Shown here: piece by piece, positions 21,401 through 24,400 of the stretch | Position numbering within the stretch: position 1 is the stretch's first letter | Layout: each line of letters opens with the position of its first letter | Origin: Opisthocomus hoazin | Lineage: Eukaryota > Chordata > Aves > Opisthocomiformes > Opisthocomidae | Length of the DNA stretch: 64,000 nt | Direction: 5' to 3' | Assembly (NCBI RefSeq): GCF_030867145.1 | Contig: NC_134427.1 | Coordinates: 19,801,001 to 19,865,000 of the forward strand | Program-made: the position numbers and the translations under genes | Notes under the pieces: generated by a model | Told to the model about the DNA's origin: nothing | Databases searched by the model: none | Seen by the model: the letters and a program-made list of their open reading frames with translations, nothing else

Positions 21401-24400
21401 CCCTTGTTCTAATGATGACCTTGGTGAACTCTGACCCCCTACTCCCAGGTCCCTCAGGTTAGCCCCTTAACTCCAAAATAATAACTTTGCATGAAAATGA
21501 ATGTATATACTTTTGTAGCGTCTAAATGTAGATATGCTGAGTCATGTTTCAGACATACCTTTTAATTTGTGGTAGAAAAGAAAAGCTCAGAGTTGGTTTT
21601 CAGACTCTTCCTCCAGGTTGTTGTAGGACTGACAATGGAAGGGCAGAGTGTTGCTCTCCCCATGGTGGAAGATCATGTGGGTCCAGATCTGCAAGACTTT
21701 GAAAACTTGTTTTAGTATATTTATTCTTGGTGCAGTTGAAAACAATAATATACTGGTTTTCATCTTTTTTTAAAAAGCATCTTGCGCTGTCCTCCCACGT
21801 CTTTGCTGTATAATTGTGTTTTGCAGCTTGGGCAAGTGGCAGTATTCATTTTTATAACACCTGCTACTGTTGATTTTGGACACTCTCAAGTGACTTAAAT
21901 AAATTAGATGTTTCTTTTATACCAACAGTGTCTGCAGGAAAATTTATACAGAATAACAGTGACGCTTTACGTTCCCAACTTAGAGCATTGTAACTTTCCA
22001 GTGCAGAGAAATCCTTATTTCCATTGTATTGCTTCACCAGCACGTTTAGAGAGAATGAGGAAAGCTCTTCCTTTAGTATGCATTTAATGAAAACGAAGCA
22101 TACAGCCCTCCCCGCCCTAGCGCTAGGGCAGTGGAACAGGATTGATAAGAACATGGTGATTTTCACAAGCTTATTGTCATTTTAGCAGATCAGCATGTAG
22201 CACAAGCCAGCTCTTGGGAAGATTGTGAACATCTGTGTCTAGATTGAAAATGACTTGGTATATCTGTTTAATAAGAACGATGTCTTTAGGTTTTGCTATG
22301 ATGACTTTCAAGAAGCAAAGAGCTGTCATGAAAATTCAATAATGGAATAAATTTAGTTTTTAGTATGCTGTCCTAAGCACTGTGAGGTGGCAAATGTGGT
22401 AGCCCCTGACGTTTGAATCCTAGCTTTATGCCGTCATACAAAAAAATGAATGTGGCTTTACCTTTTAATTTAACTGTGGCCACACAAGCAGTAACCACAC
22501 TTTCAAAGTGCGTTACCATCATGGGTATGCAGAGGGCAACTTCTCAATTGCTTCATGTTTTGTTCTACCCTGTGACTGTGATCAGCCAGCATTCAATGAT
22601 CAACAAGTACAGGACAGATTTATAAATCACAGCAAAACTTATCTCACTGTGAAATATAGTTTATAAGTACTAAACAGTAACAATACAATGTCCATGTCAT
22701 TATTTTTAACAGCTGTATTACAGTTAGTATTTAAAATAATTTACAGAATGTGTAAGAAATAGTGCATTGAGGTAAACCTGATGTATTTATTATAGTTTTT
22801 AGCTGTAATTTGCATGGAGATATGTTGATATATTTCAATCATTTCACTGACATGAAAAATGCAAGTGGCACAGAAGCTAAAATACGTATGAATTCAGGAG
22901 CATGGTAGGGACAACCAGCTCACCTTTTGAAAGAGGACATTTAAATGATTTTTTTCTAAGGATGTTATCACATGCCATTCTCCACAATAACCTTAAAGAG
23001 GTAAATTAGCATCAACAATTTATTAATTTGTAAGTTCTGCTGTATTTTTGCTTATAGCATTTGCAACCCTTTTGATCCATATCAGTCCTGCTTACCATTA
23101 TGGAGCAGGTATAAGCCTACTTTTCAGTCCTAGAATTGTAGTCATAGATAGTCAAGGCTCATACCCAATTACTGGTGCTAAGTCCTTCTGTTATTCACAC
23201 TTTCCCCCTGCCCAAAGCAGAATTTTGCTCAAGAGCAAGCTGTCATTCACAGTCTACCTGCGTATCTGCCAGGCTTCAGGCCCTGTGATGGTGACTATTG
23301 TCAGTGAAATGGTTACACAGTCCAAACCCCGTTGTGCGTAGGACTAACCACTCGTAGGCCTCAGCTGTAATGTTAAAGCAATAACATATTCTTTAGTAAA
23401 GCTTTAAGTTTGCTGTTAAATGAAGTGTCAAATTAGTCTTAGCAGAGCCTAGTCACCAGAATAACTTGTATCTGAAAATACATATCATTGTGTATTCATG
23501 TCTGGTTTTATGCATGCATGTGGATTATATTGTAAATACAAAATATGCTGGTGAAATGGGTTGTTGTGTAGTGTATATGCTGTCATCTGTACTATTTCTA
23601 ACTAGTAATCTTGTTTTGTACTGTGTGATGTCTGACCCTTCTAACATCGATCATTGGGCTTTGGTGAACTCTGATCCTTCCAGGTCTTCCAGGTTAGACT
23701 CTTAACTCGGTCAATTTATTTTACTACATTGCACTTGATGTAAGGGAAGCAGATGTTTTTCTGTAATTCTGTTAGTATCTTTTTAAGGACTGTGGTTACC
23801 CTGCAGACTGTATGTGTTTGATTAGCATGCCTCAGATGGTAACCTGTTATTATTTTGCATGTGTACAGTACTACACCAGTATAAAAGAGCAAAATGAACA
23901 CAAAAAATCCTTGCATGATGGGATGTTTTCTGTAGCTGAAACTGCTACAGGATATGTGTGAAATCTGGTACAAAATTGCTGTTGATTTAAAAAGAAAAAT
24001 TTTGGAAGGAATTCTATACTTAGATTTGCATGCAGAAGTACAGCTCATCAAATTTATCCACTGAATGTAGACTATGAGGATGTCAAAGGAGATGTTAAAT
24101 TATTCAAGGTTGCAGAAGAATTGAAAATTCAGCACACTGATATTATTAGATTTGTTGTGCTACAAGGGAGAATGTCATGGCACTATCCTGCAAAGAGATC
24201 CTTCTGTTAATCCAATTATGAGATCCAGCTGGTAAAATGTTCTTAGCTGTTGCTGCACTTGCTTACAGTTTGTTTCACCACAAATTAATATCGGTTACAT
24301 TCTGTTTAAATGGTGGCATAAAGATAGGGGTCTCATCTTTCAGTTCTCCAAATACCTAGGTTTCTTTTAAATCCACTGCTTTGCTTTGGATTAATGTGGC

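Follow-up and report, generated by a model that had tools for sequence, protein, structure and literature searches.

Does intron 41 of the type IV collagen gene at this locus of Opisthocomus hoazin contain two 9-nt exons, and are these the counterparts of exons 41A and 41B of human COL4A5? The window, i.e. the whole stretch of 64,000 nt analysed, carried on its plus strand a type IV collagen gene, of which the 3′ part is covered, with a chain of Gly-X-Y exons at ca. 323–28312 (plus strand) followed by NC1 exons up to a stop codon near position 31593. The interruptions of the modelled chain (QTITEP, FDVP, F, PPLE and RSIVVK) occurred in the same order as those of human alpha5 (QTITQP, LDVP, F, PALE and QSIIIK). 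Among single-chain PDB entries, the first NC1 exon (70 amino acids) was the most similar to human alpha5 (5naz, 96.9 bits, in comparison to 86.6 bits for alpha1, 1m3d), and within two fusion chains the alpha1-like and alpha5 stretches scored nearly equally against this exon (72.8 and 72.0, respectively). A single-exon ORF of 1220 amino acids at 56871–60533 (minus strand) contained a PH domain together with an IRS-type PTB domain, and is presumably IRS4-like by its position, IRS4 being the neighbour of COL4A5. On the basis of the interruptions, the NC1 similarity and the IRS-type neighbour, the window gene is identified as COL4A5.

Six COL4 loci were found in the genome, one of them being the window gene, which shares its contig with another on the opposite strand; altogether the loci form three opposite-strand pairs on three contigs. 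Putative names for the other five genes were assigned from the pairing and from NC1 similarity. The pair so assigned to alpha3/alpha4 sits on a 96 Mb contig, and the bird chromosome carrying this pair is presumably smaller than 96 Mb.

The region in question is composed of the following features:

Exon 41: 18406–18591, plus strand, 186 nt, phase 1 to 1, from splice sites and translation; holds the interruption GPPLEG (PALE in human)
Intron 41: 18592–25067, plus strand, 6476 nt
Exon 41A (candidate): 21449–21457, plus strand, 9 nt, GTCCCTCAG, Gly-Pro-Ser
Exon 41B (candidate): 23684–23692, plus strand, 9 nt, GTCTTCCAG, Gly-Leu-Pro
Exon 42: 25068–25201, plus strand, 134 nt, phase 1 to 0, from splice sites and translation

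Direct reading of the letters confirmed what the sequence-only reading had reported for intron 41, i.e. two exact 9-mers between AG and GT, each in phase 1 to 1 and coding for Gly-Pro-Ser and Gly-Leu-Pro in the Gly-X-Y register. Exon 41A was bordered by ctactcccag and gttagcccc, and exon 41B by gatccttccag and gttagactc, when exon 41 ended with ..CCG G/gtaaga and exon 42 started with ag/GT CCG CCA. Since both cassettes are in phase 1 to 1, the reading frame stays intact in any combination. Splice-site matrices were derived from the other exons of the same gene (19 acceptors and 22 donors), the cassettes being excluded. By these, the acceptor and donor scored 7.1 and 9.4 bits for 41A, and 12.1 and 10.3 bits for 41B; the exon 41 donor scored 10.6 bits and the exon 42 acceptor 8.2 bits. 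Both cassette donors begin with GTTAG (21449–21462 and 23684–23697), which upon read-through gives an immediate in-frame TAG (G/GT TAG). The hexamer TGCATG, an RBFOX site, was located at 21488–21493 (plus strand), ca. 30 bases past the 41A donor, and just TGCAC was present at a similar distance from 41B.

In human, the kidney transcript of COL4A5 carries a GPTGFQ insert at residue 1264 (PMC7160674 and PMC8384871). Exons 41A and 41B are of 9 bp each according to a title cited within PMC7160674, and the first base of 41A completes a GGT glycine codon (PMC7160674). The transcript forms described in the same paper include both exons, 41B alone, or neither, with none having 41A alone; the fractions need care, as one row of its Table 1 totals 109 percent (PMC7160674). 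The sequence-only reading had matched the hoazin cassettes to the human exons in position and size, which agrees with the published human data: the intron is the same, each exon is 9 nt, and the insertion point is 15 residues past the interruption. In residues, the human insertion point at 1264 lies 15 past Gly1249, the glycine behind the shared interruption XXI (PALE, 1245–8, in human; GPPLEG here), and the point here is also 15 past the corresponding glycine, from 218 to 203 residues ahead of the HSQ of NC1. In human, 56 residues separate F1189 from PALE1245, and the hoazin model has 56 as well. From human Gly1249 to Gln1373 there are 124 residues with the insert; in the hoazin model the cassettes raise the corresponding distance from 118 to 124. 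From the last residue of the human table, 1691, we infer that human numbering past 1264 counts the insert.

The human exons and the hoazin cassettes thus have in common the gene, the intron, two exons of 9 bp, their order, phase and Gly-X-Y register, and the spacing to interruptions. They differ in the inserted residues: the human exons add GPT GFQ and the hoazin cassettes GPS GLP, 3/6 being identical (G, P, G). The human intron could be compared via two published primers, one of which matched weakly and the other not at all: the forward primer, situated upstream of human 41A, agreed in 14/19 bases just upstream of 41A, a match no better than that at four or more further positions of the window, and by local score the bin just upstream of 41A was second of 315 (best bin 13 vs 11), whereas the reverse primer had no convincing match downstream in the region. 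The claim that the cassettes are counterparts of the GPTGFQ insert holds for place, frame and length, which support orthology, and only half of the residues agree. The term “kidney-type” used for the human exons was right in that the kidney transcript holds GPTGFQ, and too narrow in that the long form is also reported from liver, placenta and spleen and is present in cultured skin fibroblasts (PMC7160674). A literature search found no paper on 41A/41B in birds. As judged from the genomic sequence, 41A and 41B are with high confidence orthologues of human COL4A5 41A and 41B, i.e. two optional 9-nt exons of predicted use, and the gene would very probably be able to make a slightly longer collagen chain too. 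The feature is the expected counterpart of a known human one.

Short cassettes of this kind may be set beside other known systems. Recursive splice sites have AG directly followed by GT, and a strong donor is regenerated at the junction. Likewise, both cassettes here begin and end at AG/GT, so that GT stands directly after each acceptor, and the second AG of 41B would be a fair acceptor (8.7 bits). It could accordingly be proposed that intron 41 is removed stepwise at these sites with nothing kept in the mRNA. However, the regenerated donors were weak (0.7 and 2.7 bits) in comparison to the cassettes' own strong donors (9.4 and 10.3 bits), the second AG scored below the first at both sites (2.2 vs 7.1 and 8.7 vs 12.1 bits), the intron is short, just 6476 nt, and the human counterparts occur in cDNA (PMC7160674), which makes recursive splicing very improbable. 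The neural microexons of the SRRM4 type are in-frame cassette exons of 3–27 nt with intronic signals nearby, having UGC close upstream of the acceptor. Shortness, frame and nearby intronic signals are shared with 41A and 41B, but no TGC was found within 28 bases upstream of either acceptor, and the known use of the human exons is in non-neural tissue such as kidney and skin.

The flanks of the two cassettes, the near-identity of which was absent from the sequence-only reading, are the less expected part of an otherwise known kind of feature. The upstream motif TTGGTGAACTCTGAYCC starts at 21421 and 23661, i.e. 28 and 23 bases ahead of 41A and 41B, respectively, and a second motif common to both cassettes, CAGGTTAGNCYCTTAACTC, spans the donors:

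Upstream twin motif of 41A: 21421–21437, plus strand, TTGGTGAACTCTGACCC
Donor-side twin motif of 41A: 21455–21473, plus strand, CAGGTTAGCCCCTTAACTC
Upstream twin motif of 41B: 23661–23677, plus strand, TTGGTGAACTCTGATCC
Donor-side twin motif of 41B: 23690–23708, plus strand, CAGGTTAGACTCTTAACTC

The upstream motif of 41A probably includes a branch point. In gapped alignment of the context (131 bases), the 41A/41B pair scored 29, the highest of 24,423 candidate pairs (next 24), and none of 5000 dinucleotide shuffles reached this score (maximum 20). Anchored identity of the context was also the best for this pair (23/33, next 20). Taken separately, the upstream 60 nt did not place the pair among the best six of 24,434 pairs, and the downstream stretch (12/14 identity) was equalled by one further pair among 24,531. 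The similarity faded beyond ca. 30 bases upstream and 16 bases downstream. Allowing up to three mismatches, each motif had two matches in the window, as many being obtained in 7/100 shuffles for the upstream motif and in 1/100 for the donor motif. Across the genome of 1,482,131,872 bases, where motif counts may be lower bounds, the upstream motif had two exact matches, i.e. the 41A and 41B sites (reversed control, one), and the donor motif likewise two exact matches at these same sites with six more at one mismatch. A 106-base query around 41A matched only its own locus in the genome; as the query missed the known 41B twin, this says little on diverged copies. The twin-flank pattern had no matches in the collections genome_contigs (prokaryote) and viral_contigs (virus), both without vertebrates by design, and Rfam gave none in the window at gathering score. 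A donor-sequestering hairpin (GUUAG-NCYC-UUAAC, 5–6 pairs, −1.9 and −2.2 kcal/mol) was considered for the two sites and found unsupported against shuffles, 45/200 and 72/200 of which folded equally well (z −0.84 and −0.49); the same five pairs are possible at 21 of 1738 GT sites in the region, and the two positions at which the hairpin copies differ are both in the loop.

Because the flanks are nearly identical, 41A and 41B may have been born by duplication of one exon, and the twin flanks would go back to an ancient duplication maintained by selection; they may alternatively have converged on common signals. The exons might also have worked in an ancestor common with mammals and be silent in this lineage, and the 3/6 residues identical with human suit such relics. 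Four splice dinucleotides, two lengths, two frames and the twin flanks are nevertheless all intact, and loss of function in this lineage is therefore considered as improbable as recursive splicing.

How far the cassettes exceed cryptic sites was evaluated by scoring AG-N9-GT sites with the same matrices. Among the 103 intronic sites in the portion of the gene within the window, 41B was the first (sum 22.4) and 41A the second (16.5), the next reaching 10.4; among all 277 sites on the plus strand of the window, the ranks were 1 and 10, respectively. For the introns modelled in alpha1, alpha3, alpha4 and alpha6, none of the 548 sites had a sum of ≥15. Compatibility with Gly-X-Y was observed for 8/100 intronic sites in alpha5 and 22/548 in the four paralogues. 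On the minus strand of the window, one decoy of 265 sites (17.8) outscored 41A, and 5/608 sites reached 15 in the antisense of the five COL4 genes, exons included. As these decoys score as high, the splice score of 41A by itself is within the range of chance, and the deciding evidence against chance is the context common to 41A and 41B. A third 9-mer in Gly-X-Y register at 7805–7813 (plus strand), GTTCCCCAG, the third-best intronic 9-mer of the gene, was rejected due to a weak acceptor (1.1 bits; donor 9.3) and lack of the twin flanks, its context scoring 11 against 41A and 12 against 41B. That the cassettes are cryptic AG-N9-GT pairs which keep the collagen frame by luck and are never spliced is the least probable explanation of all: antisense decoys equal 41A in strength (5/608), but the cassettes lead the 103 sites of the sense introns, none of the 548 paralogue sites reached a sum of 15, exact matching across the genome gave their twin flanks at no other place, and the residue position is identical to that of the human insertion.

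The optional exons were next to be placed within the collagen IV family. In alpha1 and alpha3, the intron at the same place measured 675 and 670 nt, respectively, and was without AGG-N7-GGT candidates; in the tentative models, it was 1815 nt in alpha4 with one poor candidate, and 937 nt in alpha6 with none. The preceding exon was 186 nt in alpha1, alpha3 and alpha5. None of the four paralogous introns contained the twin motifs. Judging by the gene models, of the five genes compared in this genome (alpha1, alpha3, alpha4, alpha5 and alpha6) only alpha5 has the cassette pair. The shared 4-residue interruption starts 223 residues from HSQ in alpha5 without the insert and 229 with it, in comparison to 223 in alpha1 and 219 in alpha3; alpha5 without the insert therefore equals alpha1, and the insert, which makes it exceed alpha1 by two triplets N-terminal of the insertion point, shifts alpha5 further from alpha3. 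The figure of 221 for alpha4 is unusable, since the alpha4 model begins one exon late, and so is the distance for alpha6, the model of which includes a doubtful 36-nt exon (36161–36196 of the joined alpha6 stretch). The alpha4 frame extends upstream of the model start, where the residues resemble interruption XXV of human alpha4. In the human table, the distances to NC1 are 205 for alpha3, 238 for alpha4 and 216 for alpha5, the last apparently with the insert. An interruption 9–12 residues C-terminal of the homologous junction was present in alpha3 and alpha4, and not in alpha5, so that chain length could plausibly be adjusted at the junction.

For 41A and 41B, we infer use in mRNA, splicing order, duplication and regulation as follows. 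The alpha5(IV) chain would gain 0, 3 or 6 residues at the point 15 residues past GPPLEG. Exon 41B would be joined more readily owing to its stronger acceptor (12.1 vs 7.1 bits), and 41A would be included only together with 41B. The forms expected on this model are those known from human, with both exons, with 41B alone or with neither, and the human usage fits the stronger 41B acceptor here. A common factor or a common branch-point context may couple 41A with 41B, and after duplication the two exons would have been kept alike in their flanks by common splicing signals. A more far-reaching proposal, which we put forward tentatively and regard as rather unlikely in its entirety, is that of a duplicated microexon whose copies have kept matching intronic flanks (ca. 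17 nt on the upstream and 16 nt on the downstream side) since before the bird–mammal split for one recognising factor. It would act as a coupled switch lengthening alpha5 alone by one or two triplets, just N-terminal to the alpha3/alpha4 interruption, and thereby tune packing in alpha3-alpha4-alpha5 versus alpha5-alpha5-alpha6.

Human variants in 41A (Gly1264Asp) cause Alport syndrome (PMC7160674), and the insert is therefore of importance for the kidney filter. Part of COL4A5 may escape variant calling and gene models that are blind to 9-nt exons. The twin flanks offer a concrete motif for a common splicing factor, and length, frame and place kept in a distant amniote would argue that selection acts on insert length more than on the inserted residues.
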